42,687 nucleotides of DNA from the NCBI GenBank assembly GCA_030949985.1, contig JAUZRX010000019.1:1-42687 (forward strand), written 5' to 3'. Position numbers and translations under genes: made by a program. Under the pieces are notes generated by a model. It did not search any database and had not been told where the DNA came from. It was given only the letters and a program-made list of their open reading frames with translations. Shown one piece after another: positions 3,887-12,691 of this stretch. The stretch comes from Acidobacteriota bacterium. GTDB taxonomy: Bacteria > Acidobacteriota > Polarisedimenticolia > J045. How positions within the stretch are numbered: the stretch's first letter is position 1; the number at the start of each line of letters is the position of its first letter.

Positions 3887-4558
3887 CTACTGGACCAGGA
3901 TCGTCACCTTGTCGATCTGGAGCGGCTCCCGCGGCGCGCCGGACGAAGTGCCGGCCCGCTCGAGGGCATCGAGGGTCTCGAAGCCGTCGACCACGCGGCC
4001 GAAGACGGTGTGCTTACCGTCGAGCCAGGGGGTGGGCTTGAAGATGATGAAGAACTGGCTGCCGTCGGTTCTCGGCCGGCCGGTGTTGGCCGTGGAGAGC
4101 ACGCCTCGCCGATCGTGCCGGACGTTCATCTTGGTCTCCCCGGCGAAGCGGTAACCCGGCCCGCCCCGGCCGTTGCCCAGCGGGCAGCCGCCCTGGGCCA
4201 TGAAGCCCGGGATCACCCGGTGGAAGGCCAGGCCGTCGTAAAAACCCAGCCGCGCCAGGTAGATGAAGTTGGTGACGTGCATCGGCGCGGCCTTGGGCAG
4301 CAGTTCGATCTTCATCGAGCCCTTGTTGGTCTTCATCAGGGCGAAGTACTTGCGCCCCTTGGTGAAGGTGACCTTCGCGGGGAGGGGAAGCTGGACCCGC
4401 CAGGCCCCGTCGCTCTTGTCGATCTCGGCCTTGGCGATCATGGCGTCGATGGCTGCCAGGGCGGCATCGGGCGCCGGGGCGGGCGCGGCCTCGGTGGCCA
4501 GCGCCGCGGGCAGCGCCAGGGCCAGCAAGGTCCACAGGGCAAGGATGTTCCGCTTCAT
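3887..4558 (-). CDS. Exported cyclophilin-type peptidyl-prolyl isomerase
   Basis: This 223-residue protein has a signal peptide (basic MKRN, hydrophobic stretch to about residue 21) followed by an Ala/Pro-rich spacer and a cyclophilin domain. The domain signature is FHRVIPGFMAQGG, with the catalytic Arg and the Phe/Met/Gln of the proline pocket, then GNGRGGPGYRFAGE and the GSQFFI segment. It should catalyse cis/trans isomerisation of prolyl bonds in the periplasm. AGGAGAG lies just before the ATG. It is the last gene of a three-gene operon, nine bases after the second porin, so a role in folding those porins is a reasonable inference. Confidence 0.93.
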   Translation of the reverse strand: MKRNILALWTLLALALPAALATEAAPAPAPDAALAAIDAMIAKAEIDKSDGAWRVQLPLPAKVTFTKGRKYFALMKTNKGSMKIELLPKAAPMHVTNFIYLARLGFYDGLAFHRVIPGFMAQGGCPLGNGRGGPGYRFAGETKMNVRHDRRGVLSTANTGRPRTDGSQFFIIFKPTPWLDGKHTVFGRVVDGFETLDALERAGTSSGAPREPLQIDKVTILVQ

Positions 4559-4567
4559 CGATCTCTC

Positions 4568-6052
4568 CTAGTAGTACCAGCTGAGCACGGCGTAGAGCTG
4601 CGGGCTGCGGCGGAAACGAGACCCCGTGCGGGCCACGTGATCTCCGGCCTGGATCGTCCGGGTGGCGGCGGGCTTGCGGTAGCCCACGTCGGGGGTGTAG
4701 GACGAGAAGAGATCGCGCACGAACGACTTGTGTTCGGTCTGCAACCAGCCGAGTTCGAGTTTGAGGTTCTGGTCGCGGACGTACCATGTCACGCCGCCGC
4801 CCCACTGGCGCAGGCGCTCGCTCAGGGCGATCCAGGAGGGCCGGTCTTCGATCACCGGGGTGTCGGTCTGGCCGGTGTTGGTCAGCACCGGCGGCCCGAG
4901 TTCGGTCGCGACCGGGTCGACGATGCCGAAATCGGGCTGCTGGGCCTCGACCCAGCGGCCGACGACCTCCCAGTTCCGGGCCACGAAGAGGCCGACTTCG
5001 ATTTGCCACACCTCCAGGTCCTGGTCATCACGACGCAGGACCACGGCGGAGGTGGGAATTGGGATGCCCAGCACGTGGTCCGCTTCGGGCCCCGCGTTGA
5101 CCAGGCGGTTGTTTTCGTAGGTCCACTTCTGCCAGCTCGTCAGCAGGGTCACGGCTTCGGCCCGGTAGCCGAAGAAGAGCTCGAAGCCATCCCGCGAGAC
5201 CGAGGGCTCGCACTCGGCCCCGGCCACCGGCAGACAGAGACCCTTGGTCTGCGAGTCGACCATGCCGAGGGAGTTCTTGACGAAGGCGGCGCCCACGGTG
5301 ACCTGTTCTTCGTCCGGGCGCTCGTAGCGCGGCGAGTCGGAGTCGAAGCCGTCGGGACCGGTCAGCTCGAAGCGCAGGGCGATCTGCTGGTCGGTGTCCG
5401 TGTCGTAGGTGTTGCGCCCGGAGCCGTTCTGGACCGCGGCCTGGGCGTGGAAACGCCCCCGCCGCCAGTCGATTTGGAAACCGGGGTCGCGCTCGGGCGA
5501 GATGTAGGTCGTGGCCGGGGAGAGCCGGGGCAGGAGCTGTCGCCAGCTGCGCTGGAGCTGGAAGAAGCCGAAGGGCGTTTTGAACTGGCCGAAGGTCAGC
5601 GCCCACTGCTCGCCGGCCCGGATGCGAACCCAGGCGTCGAGCAGTTCCATGTCGGTACCTCCGCCCCGCGTCTCCGATTCCAGCCGGAAGGTCAGCCAAT
5701 CGGCGACCGCCTTGCCGGTGAAGATCGCTCGGGCCCGCTGCAGGTCGAAGCCCTGCTGCTGGGGAAAGCGAATGCCCGCGTCGGAGGAGAAGGCGTCGCC
5801 CGTTGCGTAGGGGAAGGCGATCTCCTCGTCGTTGTTGCCGAGCCAGCCGTAGAACGAGCCCGAATAGTCCAGTTCGTCCCGCGAACGGTTGACGGCGACT
5901 TCTGCAAAGAAATGCATGTCGAGGGAGAAGTGCTCGCCCTCGGCAATCCGGATGCCTTGTTCGTCCGCCGAGGCCTCGCCGGCCAGGCTCGGAAGAGCGA
6001 CGGCTCCGGCGGCGAGGACGGCGAGCAGGGCTCCCATCGATCGTAGCTTCAT
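4568..6052 (-). CDS. OprO/OprP-like outer-membrane porin (second of pair)
   Basis: This 494-residue protein has an N-terminal signal peptide (cleavage near ALPSLAG, residue 25), alternating beta strands and a C-terminus ending in aromatic residues (LSWYY), as expected for a beta-barrel recognised by the BAM complex. The segments DFxxxRARAIFTG, ADWLTFRLE, ELLDAWVRIRAGEQ and FGQFKTPFGFF match the phosphate-selective porin O/P family, whose members form anion- or polyphosphate-permeable trimers. Substrate specificity cannot be read from sequence. C273 and C281 sit in a predicted loop and match a cysteine pair at the same spacing in the next porin. GGAGGA precedes the ATG. It is 39 bases downstream of the other porin. 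Confidence 0.85.
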   Translation of the reverse strand: MKLRSMGALLAVLAAGAVALPSLAGEASADEQGIRIAEGEHFSLDMHFFAEVAVNRSRDELDYSGSFYGWLGNNDEEIAFPYATGDAFSSDAGIRFPQQQGFDLQRARAIFTGKAVADWLTFRLESETRGGGTDMELLDAWVRIRAGEQWALTFGQFKTPFGFFQLQRSWRQLLPRLSPATTYISPERDPGFQIDWRRGRFHAQAAVQNGSGRNTYDTDTDQQIALRFELTGPDGFDSDSPRYERPDEEQVTVGAAFVKNSLGMVDSQTKGLCLPVAGAECEPSVSRDGFELFFGYRAEAVTLLTSWQKWTYENNRLVNAGPEADHVLGIPIPTSAVVLRRDDQDLEVWQIEVGLFVARNWEVVGRWVEAQQPDFGIVDPVATELGPPVLTNTGQTDTPVIEDRPSWIALSERLRQWGGGVTWYVRDQNLKLELGWLQTEHKSFVRDLFSSYTPDVGYRKPAATRTIQAGDHVARTGSRFRRSPQLYAVLSWYY

Positions 6053-6091
6053 GACCAGGTCCTCCTCTGGGTCTGCGGAATCGCGGCGGCT

Positions 6092-7399
6092 CTAAAAGGC
6101 GTGCTGGATTCCGATGCGAATGAAGTTGGACTTGGCCTCGGTTCTGCCGCGAATGAAGTCGCCGGCCGCGAGCGCTTCGAGGGGGTCGCTGATGTCCAGG
6201 CGATCATCGATGGCCATTTCGAACTGGCCCACGTTGATTTGCAGCTTGAGGTCGTGGTTGCCCGTGAAGTAGTAGTTGAAGCCCGCGGTCAGGGCCGTGG
6301 TCTCGTACTCGCTCTGCAGTTCGCCCGTGTAGATCGTGTCGAGCGGGTCGGTGGTCCAGGACTCGTAGCGCAGGGCCACTTCGCTGTGATCGCCCACCCA
6401 GGCTCCCACTTCGACGGTGCAGGAGTCGAGTTGCAGCTCGTCCGGCCCGCCCGCGGGGTTGAAACCGGCGTTGTCCTGGCTCCAGGACTGCCACGAGAAG
6501 TTGGCGCGGACCCGCGTGCCGGCCACACCGCCGAAGACCTCGAAGGCCGACAGGTTGTCGGTGGCATAGCCGCAGGTCTGGGCGAGGCTGCCCTCGCAGA
6601 CCATGGTGGAGCCCACTTCGTTGTCGTGGGCGGCCACGCCGATGCCGTAACGCAGGCCCTCGTACCGGCCCGGGAGGGCCGTCATGCCGCTGCCGAAGAA
6701 GCCGGGCGTCTGGATGTAGACTCGGCCCGACCAGGCGAACTCGTCGTTGTCGTCGCCCAGGCTGCCGGTGCCGTTACCGTTGCTCAGCATCGCGTCCCAA
6801 CCCACCTTGTCGCTGGCGGTGTGGCCGGAGTAGCGCACGCCCACCTGGCGGCGCGGAGCGAAGGGCTCGCCGCTGAGGTAGGGGCGCTCGAGGAACATCT
6901 GGTCGCGGGAGTACTCCTGGTAGAAGTAGTCGAAGGGGTCCTTCTGCTGGCCCACTGTCATGCTGTGATTCTCGCCCATGCGGAACCGCAGCCACGCGTC
7001 CTGCAACTCCGGGCTGAGGGCGGTGCCGTAGCTGGGCATGGAGAGCATGTCCCCGCTGGGGGAGGGGAGGCTGGCCAGGTCCACGTCGACCATGTAGCTC
7101 AGCCACTCCGCACCGGCTTCGCCGAAGAAGCGCAGCCGGGCGCGGCGGACGATGAAATCGGTCTGGGGGTCGAAGTCCGTGCTCGGCACCCCCGTGTAGA
7201 GGGGGCCGGAGAAGGTCACCTCGTCATCGTTGTAGTCCGCCCGGACCTGCAGCAGAGTCGAGACGTTGAGACTGAATGCCTCGCCCTCGCGGATGAAAAA
7301 CGCACCGTCCTCCGCCTTCCCGGCCTCGCCGGCCCAGATGGGCAGTGACAGACCGGCGGCCAGGCAGAAGATTGCCAACGCCTGGATCGACTTCCGCAT
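6092..7399 (-). CDS. OprO/OprP-like outer-membrane porin (first of pair)
   Basis: This 435-residue protein has a signal peptide ending near IWAG (residue 24) and the same order of motifs as its neighbour: EGEAFSLNVSTLLQV, DFIVRRARLRFFG, AEWLSYMVDVD, ELQDAWLRFRMGEN and GQQKDPFDYFY. It ends in HAF, a typical barrel C-terminus. C268 and C276 lie in a loop just before strands that align with those after C273/C281 of the second porin. It is the first gene of the porin-porin-cyclophilin operon, with a perfect AAGGAGGT ahead of the ATG, which predicts strong translation. The pair probably arose by tandem duplication followed by large divergence. The transported solute is unknown. Confidence 0.85.
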   Translation of the reverse strand: MRKSIQALAIFCLAAGLSLPIWAGEAGKAEDGAFFIREGEAFSLNVSTLLQVRADYNDDEVTFSGPLYTGVPSTDFDPQTDFIVRRARLRFFGEAGAEWLSYMVDVDLASLPSPSGDMLSMPSYGTALSPELQDAWLRFRMGENHSMTVGQQKDPFDYFYQEYSRDQMFLERPYLSGEPFAPRRQVGVRYSGHTASDKVGWDAMLSNGNGTGSLGDDNDEFAWSGRVYIQTPGFFGSGMTALPGRYEGLRYGIGVAAHDNEVGSTMVCEGSLAQTCGYATDNLSAFEVFGGVAGTRVRANFSWQSWSQDNAGFNPAGGPDELQLDSCTVEVGAWVGDHSEVALRYESWTTDPLDTIYTGELQSEYETTALTAGFNYYFTGNHDLKLQINVGQFEMAIDDRLDISDPLEALAAGDFIRGRTEAKSNFIRIGIQHAF

Positions 7400-7875: not shown

Positions 7876-8157
7876 GCTGGCAACCACACGGTCATCTTCG
7901 GCGGAATATAAGGCCTTTTGGAGGCCGGCGAAAGCTTCTTGCCGACGGTTTTTCGGCGCGGTTCGTCGATCCGCTGCCCCGGGCGGGAGGGACGGGGCCC
8001 CCGGCGCGCCGCACCCCGCGAAACGAGGCCGCATGGGGCATACTGGCGGGCCGGCGTGCGGTGTCCCGGTCCCCCGGAAGCTCGTTCCCGGGGGCGCGGG
8101 GGGCTCGCCGCGGGCCGCCGGGCGGGGACGTGGCCCCCGGCTGCGTTCGAGGTTGCG

Positions 8158-9234
8158 ATGACACGCGTTGTTTCACTCCTGCTGATCCTGGCCGCTGCCG
8201 CGCCCGCCGCCGCGGGGGGCGCCGCCAGGGGCCGCTTGCGGGGCGCCGTGCGCTCGGCGGAGGGGCGGGCTCTGCCCGCCGCGGCGGTGATCGCCCAGCG
8301 CACCGCCGGACCGGCCTTCCTGGGGCTGACCGTGACCGATGGCCGTGGACTCTATGCGCTCGACGGTCTGCCCCCCGGTCCTTACCGCGTGCTGGCGCTG
8401 GCGGAAGGGTTTCAGCCCGCACGGCTCGAGGGCATCGTCGTAGGGGGACCGTTTCGGGCGGTGGCCGAACTGACCCTCCTCCCGGGATTCGCCGCGCCGG
8501 TTTCCGTCGAAGCGGCCGGTCAGGGACCGGGGCATGCCTTGCGGCTGCAAGCCGAGGACGAGCGGGGGGCTCCCCTGGCCGGCGTTCACCTGACCCTCGA
8601 ACCCGTGGGGCAACGGGCCAACCCGGTCCGGCGGGTGACCGATGAGCAGGGCGCGGTGCCACCCATCGATCTGGCTCCAGGCCCCTGGCGCCTGCGGGTC
8701 GGCCGGGCGGGCTGGGCCCCGCTGGTCATCGGACGCCTGGCCTGGGGTACGGGCACCCTGGATCTGCGGGTTCGCCTGCGCCCCCTCCCCGAGCGTGCCG
8801 AAACGCCCCTCGACGAACTCGTGCCCCAGCCGCTGTGGCTCGACCACTCAGAGCCCCGGGTTTCCCCCGGGGGCGTTTTCTCCTCCGCGCTCGTGCCCGG
8901 GCCGGACCGCGCGGTAGCCCTGGCGGTGGCGGATGTCGTAGCCCCGGCTGCCGGGGACACGCACGCGGATCCGGACCAGGCGCCCGTCGAAGACCTCGTT
9001 GTCCGAGGCGTAGACCACCTGGTACAGGGCGCGCAGTTCCTCGGCGATCAACTGGTAGACACCGGCCAGTTCCTCGGCCTTGCGGACGAAAAAGGCGCGA
9101 CCGCCGGTCATGCGGGTCAGCCGCTTGAGGGCCGAACGGGCGGTGCTCAGGGGTTGGACGCCCAGGCCGATGGCGTAGATCGTCACGTCGGAGAGTTCCG
9201 CTTCCTCCGTGATCGCAGCGAGGTCGAGGCGTGA
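8158..9234 (+). CDS. Exported carboxypeptidase-regulatory-like domain protein
   Basis: The protein starts with a signal peptide (MTRVVSLLLILAAAAPAAAG). Two beta-sandwich modules of the carboxypeptidase regulatory-like (Ig/prealbumin-like) type follow. The first, about residues 22-115, shows GRGLYALDGLPPGPYRVLAL; the second, about 125-200, shows DERGAPLAGVHLTLEP and DLAPGPWRLRV. Such modules are structural parts of cell-surface proteins; no enzymatic domain is visible. Convincing similarity stops near 8850. The next stop in this frame is at 9234, so the last 130 or so codons lie antisense to the VWA gene and look like shadow sequence. The first stop in any plus frame is at 8917, so some overlap is unavoidable. 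The C-terminus is the weak point of this call. Confidence 0.6.
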   Translation: MTRVVSLLLILAAAAPAAAGGAARGRLRGAVRSAEGRALPAAAVIAQRTAGPAFLGLTVTDGRGLYALDGLPPGPYRVLALAEGFQPARLEGIVVGGPFRAVAELTLLPGFAAPVSVEAAGQGPGHALRLQAEDERGAPLAGVHLTLEPVGQRANPVRRVTDEQGAVPPIDLAPGPWRLRVGRAGWAPLVIGRLAWGTGTLDLRVRLRPLPERAETPLDELVPQPLWLDHSEPRVSPGGVFSSALVPGPDRAVALAVADVVAPAAGDTHADPDQAPVEDLVVRGVDHLVQGAQFLGDQLVDTGQFLGLADEKGATAGHAGQPLEGRTGGAQGLDAQADGVDRHVGEFRFLRDRSEVEA

Positions 9235-10071
9235 TTCGGTATCGTCCCCGTCGCTGAGGATGATCAGCGCCCGGCGTTCGGAGGGCACCTGGTAGCTGAC
9301 GCGAAAGGCGGCATGGAGGGCGTCGTAGAGCGCGGTGCCGCCCACCGGGAAGGTGCCGCCGATGGACTTGCAGGCGGCGTCGAAGTCGTCGGTGATCTCC
9401 TCGACGAGGAAGACCCGCTCGTCGAAGTCCACCACGAAGGTCCGGTCGCCGTCCCGGAGCGTTTCGAGAAAGCCGCACGCCGCCTGTTGCGCGGCTTCCA
9501 TCCGCCCCCGCATCGAGCCCGACGAGTCCATCACGATGCCCACCAGGATCGGCCGCTCCTCCCGGGAGACCTCGACGATGCGCTGAGGGCGGCCGTCCTC
9601 CTCGACGACGAAGTCGGAGGCTTCGAGACCGGTGACCAGCCGGCGGTCCTGATCCCGGACGCTGACATCGAGGACCACCCGCTGCACATGGACCACGTAC
9701 CGGAGGTTCAGGGTGCGGGTGATGGCGAAATCGGAGACGGTGGGGCCGTCGCGGTGGTGGGCGACGACACGCACCACGTGCTGGGCGCTGGCCTCGCCGA
9801 AGTCGTATTCGGCCTGCCAGGGGGGCTCCCGGTCGGTGAGCACCAGGCGGTCGTTGACGTAGAAGCGGACGGCCTCGATCTCCCGTGGGTCGTCGATGGT
9901 GACCGCGGCCCGGATCTGCCGGGGCCCCGAGACGACCTCGCCCGAACGCGGGGCGAGCAAGGTCACCTTGAAGCCCTTGCGGGCCGTCAGGTCCTGGGCG
10001 GTCGTCACGGCCGCCACCAGGACCAGGGCCGTCAGCAGGCCGGTGAGCCGGGTCCGGGTGTCGCCCTTCAC
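8848..10071 (-). CDS. VWFA-related domain protein (acidobacterial type), exported
   Basis: This 407-residue protein has a signal peptide (hydrophobic stretch about residues 9-25). It continues with an Ig-like segment (35-125), the linker VVLDVSVRDQDRRLVTGL with SDFVVEEDG, and a von Willebrand A domain. The metal-binding MIDAS is DSSGS at 182-186; further acidic and Thr residues follow (GGTALYDAL, LSDGDD). The arrangement matches the VWFA-related proteins that are abundant in Acidobacteriota. These are thought to mediate Mg-dependent protein contacts in the periplasm or at the surface; partners are unknown. The GTG start is preceded by GGAGGAGG and overlaps the TGA of the TPR gene (GTGA), so the two are translationally coupled. 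Confidence 0.88.
   Translation of the reverse strand: MKGDTRTRLTGLLTALVLVAAVTTAQDLTARKGFKVTLLAPRSGEVVSGPRQIRAAVTIDDPREIEAVRFYVNDRLVLTDREPPWQAEYDFGEASAQHVVRVVAHHRDGPTVSDFAITRTLNLRYVVHVQRVVLDVSVRDQDRRLVTGLEASDFVVEEDGRPQRIVEVSREERPILVGIVMDSSGSMRGRMEAAQQAACGFLETLRDGDRTFVVDFDERVFLVEEITDDFDAACKSIGGTFPVGGTALYDALHAAFRVSYQVPSERRALIILSDGDDTESRLDLAAITEEAELSDVTIYAIGLGVQPLSTARSALKRLTRMTGGRAFFVRKAEELAGVYQLIAEELRALYQVVYASDNEVFDGRLVRIRVRVPGSRGYDIRHRQGYRAVRPGHERGGENAPGGNPGL
8853..8879 (+). terminator. Possible terminator inside the convergent overlap
   Basis: CCCCGGG (854-860) pairs with CCCGGGG (866-872) and is followed by GTTTT on the plus strand. It would end plus-strand transcripts of the carboxypeptidase-regulatory-like gene, yet it sits inside the last codons of the minus-strand VWA gene. 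Confidence 0.4.
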
Positions 10072-11653: not shown

Positions 11654-12691
11654 TCAGCGTCCGGTGGATGGGAAGCGCAGCCGGAAACGCAGTTCCCGCA
11701 GATCCGGGTCGTGGGGGTCGAGGCGGATCGCCGCCTCGAGGGCCTCGAGGGCCTGTTCCCGCCGGCCCAGGGCGTTGAGGGAACGGGACCATTCCACCAG
11801 GGGAAGGGGGTCGTCCGGGGCCCGGCGGGTCACGTCTTCGAGCACCCGGGCGCTGCGGGCCGCGTCGCCGCCCTCCTCCCTGAGCCACACGCCCCAGGCT
11901 ACCTGCGCCTCCACGCTGGCGGTGTCCGCCGCCGCCCAGCGCTCGAGCACCCGGCCCCGGCCGGCCTGGCCATCGACGCTCGCGGCCAGCTCCGACCACA
12001 GGCGCCAGGCCTCCGGGTTGAGCTTTCCCGCGCAGCGGTCGGCGAGGGATTCGAGAGCCTCGAGGGCGTGCCCGGGTCTGTCCATCCGGCGGTGGATCTC
12101 CGCCTCGAGCAGGCCCGCGTCGAGGGCCACGCCGGCGCGGCAATCCGGATCCGCCGCCGCGGCCTGGCGGGTCCGCTCGAGGGCCCGGCGAAACTCCCGC
12201 ACGCGGAGTGCTTCCCGGCCCTCGCGCAGCAGGTCGGCGGCCCCCGAGGGCTGCTGCGGCGATCGACGCTCCGCGGATTTCTCGTAGGCCTGGTCGATGC
12301 CCTCGATCAGCCGTTCGGGCGAGGAATAGCCCACCAGGTCCACCAGCAGGGAGCCGTCCTTCGGATCGATGATCAGGACGGCCGGCAATTCCCGCACGCC
12401 GTAGCGCTCGGAGAGGTCCAGGCCGAGCCCCCGGCGGGCGTCCACCTCGCGCCGGAGGGGGACGGTGTTGCGTTCGACCACGCGGGTCACGCCCTCCTGG
12501 CTCCAGACGTCCTGATCCATCACGCGGCAGTACTTGCACCAGGTGGCCCAGCAATCGACGAGCACCAGCCGCCCCTCGGCCCGGGCCTTTTCCATCGCCT
12601 GCTGGAGATCGCCTTCGAACCAGGCCACCGCCGCGGAGGCGGGCGCCGGGGTCGCTGCCGCCAGCAGCAAGGCGACCAGCAGGCGCTTCAT
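11654..12691 (-). CDS. Exported thioredoxin-fold protein with TPR C-terminus
   Basis: This 345-residue protein begins with a signal peptide (to about residue 20) and a thioredoxin-like domain. The active site is WCKYC (C52, C55), followed by the cis-proline segment ELPAVLIIDPKDG, as in DsbD-gamma/DUF255-like thiol reductases. Residues 145-345 are helical with TPR character (EALEALEAAIRLDPHDPDL). It probably reduces or senses disulfides in the periplasm and contacts other proteins through its repeats. Its ATG overlaps the TGA of mtaB (ATGA), so it is in the same transcript, though its job is unrelated to tRNA modification as far as sequence shows. Confidence 0.87.
   Translation of the reverse strand: MKRLLVALLLAAATPAPASAAVAWFEGDLQQAMEKARAEGRLVLVDCWATWCKYCRVMDQDVWSQEGVTRVVERNTVPLRREVDARRGLGLDLSERYGVRELPAVLIIDPKDGSLLVDLVGYSSPERLIEGIDQAYEKSAERRSPQQPSGAADLLREGREALRVREFRRALERTRQAAAADPDCRAGVALDAGLLEAEIHRRMDRPGHALEALESLADRCAGKLNPEAWRLWSELAASVDGQAGRGRVLERWAAADTASVEAQVAWGVWLREEGGDAARSARVLEDVTRRAPDDPLPLVEWSRSLNALGRREQALEALEAAIRLDPHDPDLRELRFRLRFPSTGR

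Follow-up and report, generated by a model that had tools for sequence, protein, structure and literature searches.

Two porins encoded in tandem by an Acidobacteriota contig share a pair of cysteines, eight residues apart, in the loop that corresponds to L5 of OprP, and the pair is present in every examined member of the subfamily to which they belong. A disulfide within the loop is the best explanation of this pair, and we regard it as likely. The window analysed here is one entire contig of 42,687 nucleotides, from an assembly of 3.7 Mb in 133 contigs, and the features on which the argument turns are collected in Table 1.

Table 1. Porin genes, cysteine codons and adjoining gene, in window coordinates
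Feature	Position	Strand	Basis or description
Porin B	6092..7399	-	435 aa; ORF, Pfam Porin_O_P, 16-stranded AlphaFold barrel model
Porin B C268 codon, first Cys of pair	6596..6598	-	translation, alignment
Porin B C276 codon, second Cys of pair	6572..6574	-	translation, alignment
Porin A	4568..6052	-	494 aa; ORF, Pfam Porin_O_P, 16-stranded AlphaFold barrel model
Porin A C273 codon, first Cys of pair	5234..5236	-	translation, alignment
Porin A C281 codon, second Cys of pair	5210..5212	-	translation, alignment
Cyclophilin-type prolyl isomerase, signal-peptide-like start	3887..4558	-	Pfam Pro_isomerase, E 1.6e-46

Two diverged porins and their shared cysteines

Both porins exceed the curated cut-off of the Porin_O_P family (PF07396; 20.9 bits), porin A with 47.8 bits (E = 1.6e-12) and porin B with 50.8 bits (E = 2e-13), and a search of their own genome with this profile (E 0.001) returned the places of these two porins only. 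They are diverged paralogues with 26% identity in local BLASTP (E = 8e-25), in keeping with the preliminary description, which had called them strongly diverged outside the segments around the cysteines. Both chains are acidic, with net charges of -19 and -31 past residue 25. In the direction of transcription porin B comes first, porin A lies 39 bp further on, and the prolyl isomerase gene, the product of which is possibly a folding helper, begins after another 9 bp. By eye, a prolyl-isomerase-like gene also follows porin A in the related genome G001, and no such gene lies directly behind porin A in G004. Upstream of the porins the window encodes a CarboxypepD_reg protein (8155-8850, plus strand) and a VWA/Big_7 protein (8848-10071, minus strand); neighbours resembling both were seen by eye in G010 (L099), and a CarboxypepD_reg-like gene also stands beside porin A in G006 (L035; by eye). 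A thioredoxin-like protein with the motif CWATWCKYC, TPR repeats and a signal-peptide-like start is encoded at 11654-12691 on the minus strand.

Translation and multiple alignment confirm the pairs C273/C281 and C268/C276, each with a spacing of eight, that the preliminary description had reported, and the two strand segments that it had aligned behind them are present, forming strands 10-11 in the AlphaFold models. Porin A has no cysteines other than these two, and porin B has four, at 12, 268, 276 and 327, of which Cys12 lies inside the signal peptide. Pairwise MAFFT places C273 over C268 and C281 over C276, and in the multiple alignments the two pairs share the same two columns; in local BLASTP they are about four residues out of register. 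Since A and B are homologous, their common spacing reflects descent and conservation and not two independent events. The third mature cysteine of porin B, C327 (6419-6421, minus strand), is located in strand 12 of the model and counts against the disulfide reading; in the G001 orthologue, 81% identical, it is replaced by tyrosine.

Conservation of the pair and its recurrence elsewhere

Searches covered 100 genomes and then 41 of the class, 12 of which, the window's own included, belong to the window's family. Strong relatives of the two porins, scoring at least 385 bits with a joint profile (next best, 175 bits), occur in seven of these 12 genomes, and the same profile found none in the remaining 29 genomes of the class. 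A draw of 396 genomes from the phylum, with at most four candidates scored per genome, yielded no further strong relative, porin A had no relative among the viral contigs scanned, and a scan with an alignment of four B proteins recovered four loci in Acidobacteriota MAGs, corresponding to G010, G004, G005 and G003, with no new members. By coordinates, the tandem of B and A is found in the window's genome (G000) and in G001, G003, G004 and G010; in G005 the contig stops 47 bases behind the porin B match, and G006 has a porin A with no detected porin B.

All 12 A/B proteins from these seven genomes, the window's two among them, keep both cysteines exactly eight residues apart. The preliminary description had named loss of the pair from close homologues as one outcome that would speak against its reading, and had asked whether the pair marks a subfamily; it does, as the 12 proteins form a single branch (100/100) and the pair columns hold no cysteine in any of 43 more distant family proteins, which sample rather than exhaust the Porin_O_P proteins of the phylum. 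Within this branch the six A proteins form one of their own (100/100), and the six B proteins may form a grade. The alignment comprises 55 of 56 family ORFs obtained from 68 loci (with at most 30 loci taken from any one search; L083 was too short), and the tree was built from the 32 of its rows that score at least 95 bits, with the cysteine columns included and G020 and its relatives left out. Because the 12 proteins make up one branch, the pair probably predates the split between A and B and, by parsimony, would have arisen in the stem of the group.

Cysteines are otherwise scarce in these porins, as had been supposed: past residue 30, 33 of the 43 distant proteins contain none, seven contain one and three contain two (those of G020, G023 and G029). 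From the 13 cysteines among the 15,011 residues of these relatives, counted without the first 30 residues of each, about 0.0003 C-x7-C motifs would be expected by chance per 400-residue protein. The mature cysteine count is two in 11 of the 12 A/B proteins, over the part of each that can be read; the G010 porin A is truncated where its contig stops, and the G003 porin A is partly masked.

The rings closed by the two cysteines read CEIGISQTC, CFVGVSRSC, CLPASGSTC, CSPGISKHC, CLPVAGAEC, CVMGIAKQC, CEGSLAQTC, CQGGLAQTC, CVIGTSRSC, CLDGLSSDC, CFEGLSRDC and CMEGPLTPC. In the remaining loop columns that hold a residue in half of the rows or more, the commonest letter averages 40%. In contrast to the fixed spacing of the pair, the run from the strand-9 glycine to the first cysteine varies in length (14 to 36 residues); from the second cysteine to a strand-10 glutamate the distance is 10 or 11.

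The porin of G020, a genome from another family of the same class, has a C-x7-C of its own in the same loop, a few alignment columns away (NRGSCTRWSSSGCGNLDGF). Its close relatives in G033, G277, G298 and G041 carry Tyr or Phe at the position of the first cysteine and Gly at that of the second; the words around them are common to these proteins, and G020 is 53%, 52% and 44% identical to G277, G298 and G041, respectively, and matches G033 with 336 bits. That G020 has both cysteines and its four relatives neither argues for a bonded pair, and no protein of the A/B group, or of G020 and these relatives, has one cysteine without the other. Judged from the four relatives rather than from a tree, G020 appears to have gained its pair separately. 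Cysteines near this loop do not always come as a pair with a spacing of eight, a point against the disulfide: in G027 a lone cysteine follows the second position by five to ten columns, and the more distant G238 (L121) has the motif CPC in its strand 9-10 loop. The porins of G023 and G029 (L071, L074) share a different cysteine pair, with a spacing of 11, located one loop further on around residues 315-322 of porin B and reading LPTSCYGAFIQGRFSCDQ and LPKGCLGAYLEGRLSCDQ.

The loop and the state of its cysteines

The two AlphaFold models are of medium confidence (mean pLDDT 65.4 and 65.8, pTM 0.68 each) and contain 16 strands each, where the count for porin A takes 43-57/60-64 as one strand and omits strands of 3-6 residues. 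The cysteine pair lies between strands 9 and 10, in loop L5. The pLDDT is below 50 throughout this loop in porin B (263-280) and at 262-264, 270-272 and 275-280 in porin A, probably because the input alignments were shallow (6 and 5 sequences). The porin A model has short bridges at 272-273 and 281-282, for which partners are not given; these would fit a hairpin with facing cysteines.

With VIA-align, both models are closest to OprO and OprP (Z of 27.6 and 27.4 for porin B, next family 24.7; 25.2 and 25.1 for porin A, next 23.8). Ranked by Foldseek E-value, OprP comes first for porin A, and for porin B PorB comes first and OprP fifth, after PorB and a Burkholderia porin. Porin B alone found no match among PDB sequences with phmmer, and a profile of 21 relatives matches OprO/OprP by sequence with E-values of 2e-13 to 2e-15. 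In the profile alignment, which is uncertain at 14-16% identity, the cysteine pair falls on OprP G243 and V251, adjoining R242.

In the mechanism that we favor, the two cysteines would form an intramolecular disulfide in both porins, presumably introduced by a DsbA-like enzyme in the periplasm, either ahead of barrel assembly or in the course of it. The bond would close a ring of nine residues and would pin and stiffen the tip of the loop. Such a staple probably either holds L5 in place, at the mouth of the pore or within its lumen, and helps to set the filter, or keeps an exposed loop, presumably on the outward side, stable. In OprP, L5 lines the pore and runs down its inner surface, as described in a section of PMC3706956; this analogy makes a role in shaping pore access plausible, and from it we infer an effect of the staple on permeation.

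Gene content appears compatible with oxidative folding in the envelope. One protein of the window's genome is DsbA-like, combining a thioredoxin domain with a CPYC motif (Thioredoxin_4 match of 128 bits), and Thioredoxin_4 matches are found in all 12 genomes of the family. By eye, the CPYC domain of this protein (L103 569-1657, minus strand, contig C90) stands behind a SurA-like part, and the start is signal-peptide-like. Despite the DsbA-like protein, searches of this genome for VKOR and DsbB, either of which could recharge such an enzyme, gave no match, which counts against the disulfide; across the family, VKOR is found in three of the 12 genomes and DsbB in one.

If the bond exists, it could act solely on an exposed loop, by helping it to fold, stabilizing it or protecting it from proteases, with no effect on permeation, and to this we give a substantial chance, if somewhat short of even. 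The residues between the cysteines vary, except for a glycine in nine of the 12 proteins, and include no obviously kept filter residue, and the pair of G020 sits in a loop with otherwise different words, both as a stabilizing role would have it; against such a limited role, the corresponding L5 lines the pore in OprP (PMC3706956, in the section on that loop) and the staple would adjoin the R242 position. We hold it to be improbable that the thiols instead stay in the reduced state, either as ligands of a metal ion or as a redox switch for movement of the loop. The nearby thioredoxin-like protein with its CKYC motif would suit such a switch, as would the similar genes that, by eye, precede porin B in G004 (L100) and G005 (L102), but there is no invariant His, Cys or Asp within the ring, one upstream loop column has Asp in 10 of 12 proteins, and the G020 cysteines take the places of an aromatic residue and a glycine of its relatives rather than those of other ligands. 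Inter-chain bonds, linking subunits or A to B, are very unlikely: the adjacency of the two genes and their matching pairs would suit such links, but the invariant spacing of eight fits a bond within the loop, and the G006 porin A keeps its pair with no detected B.

The loop disulfide that the preliminary description proposed is upheld in part. The coupled conservation of the two cysteines, the subfamily branch, the position in an L5-equivalent loop and the contrast between G020 and its relatives speak for it; the bond itself is inferred, and the loop, in which a large distance between the modelled cysteines was the other outcome that the preliminary description had named against its reading, has pLDDT below 50, in full in B and in parts in A.

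Relation to OprP and to other porins

OprP and OprO resemble the two porins in family and in their 16-stranded barrel, with the pair located in the loop equivalent to their L5, but have no cysteine in this stretch. We take R218, R220, R222, R226 and R242 of OprP, all of which are arginine at these numbers in the alignment, to be the L5 residues of its arginine ladder, and R59/R60 to be the strand rungs. At the equivalents of R218, R220, R222 and R242, porin A has P, E, Q and L and porin B has Y, G, R and V, such that one of the four alignable L5 arginines is retained in B (R222) and none in A; R226 lies in an insertion and allows no comparison. At the equivalents of R59/R60, A has Q/R and B has R/R. 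In OprP, L5 contributes five arginines to the ladder and strand B2 contributes two, according to a section of PMC3706956.

The central phosphate sites of OprP are R34, Y62, D94, K121, S124, S125, K126 and R133, as listed in a passage of PMC5877670. Porin A keeps one of the eight (S169) and porin B two (S164 and R172), with R165 at the position of K126, and neither keeps K121 or D94. Every one of the six B proteins retains R133, and four of them have K at K126. With most OprP determinants absent, we do not accept phosphate selectivity for A and B, and the term "phosphate-selective" should not be carried over to them; the residues at these positions suggest that their substrate is probably not phosphate by the OprP mechanism. 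This stands as a warning that the family name by itself does not justify the annotation "phosphate-selective porin".

Cysteines are rare in the family, yet the pair is present on both sides of a duplication and again in a separate lineage, which points to a structural constraint on the loop. One broader reading, which we offer tentatively and think rather doubtful, is that in an OprP-like subfamily of one Acidobacteriota family a loop closed into a nine-residue ring by a disulfide replaces the arginine-bearing L5, having been fixed before the duplication that gave rise to two differently built pores, and that stapling arose more than once in the phylum (in the same loop in G020, and with a spacing of 11 in the next loop in G023 and G029) and serves there as a general means of controlling access to the pore. 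Were the staple to set the pore, G020 versus G033, G277, G298 and G041 would provide natural contrasts for the role of L5 in selectivity. The novelty is modest and lies in the putative stapled L5-equivalent loop, the porin family itself being already known.

In the literature surveyed, mainly titles and the openings of abstracts, no loop disulfide is described for the Porin_O_P family. Campylobacter MOMP was considered as a precedent for a loop disulfide and rejected: its structure paper (PMC5090048) contains none of the terms disulfide, disulphide, cysteine and Cys, and the passages of PMC7717971 that were examined make no mention of such a bond. ExtI of Geobacter sulfurreducens (NCBIfam NF040900), a selenite/tellurite porin, is an OprP-like protein annotated as phosphate-selective with few of the determinants and, unlike A and B with their paired cysteines, has a single cysteine, as stated in passages of PMC5877670. 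With the ExtI profile, porins A and B score 16.8 and 38.1 bits, far under its curated cut-off of 150. Chlamydia MOMP is a porin in which disulfides matter, as is proposed here for A and B; compared by description, it is cysteine-rich and forms its disulfides to other proteins (PMC549562, in part). Disulfides have been engineered into OmpG in order to alter loop motion or gating, according to part of PMC10418385, and into OmpF, judging from the title of a reference in that paper; the pair in porins A and B, by comparison, is natural and conserved.
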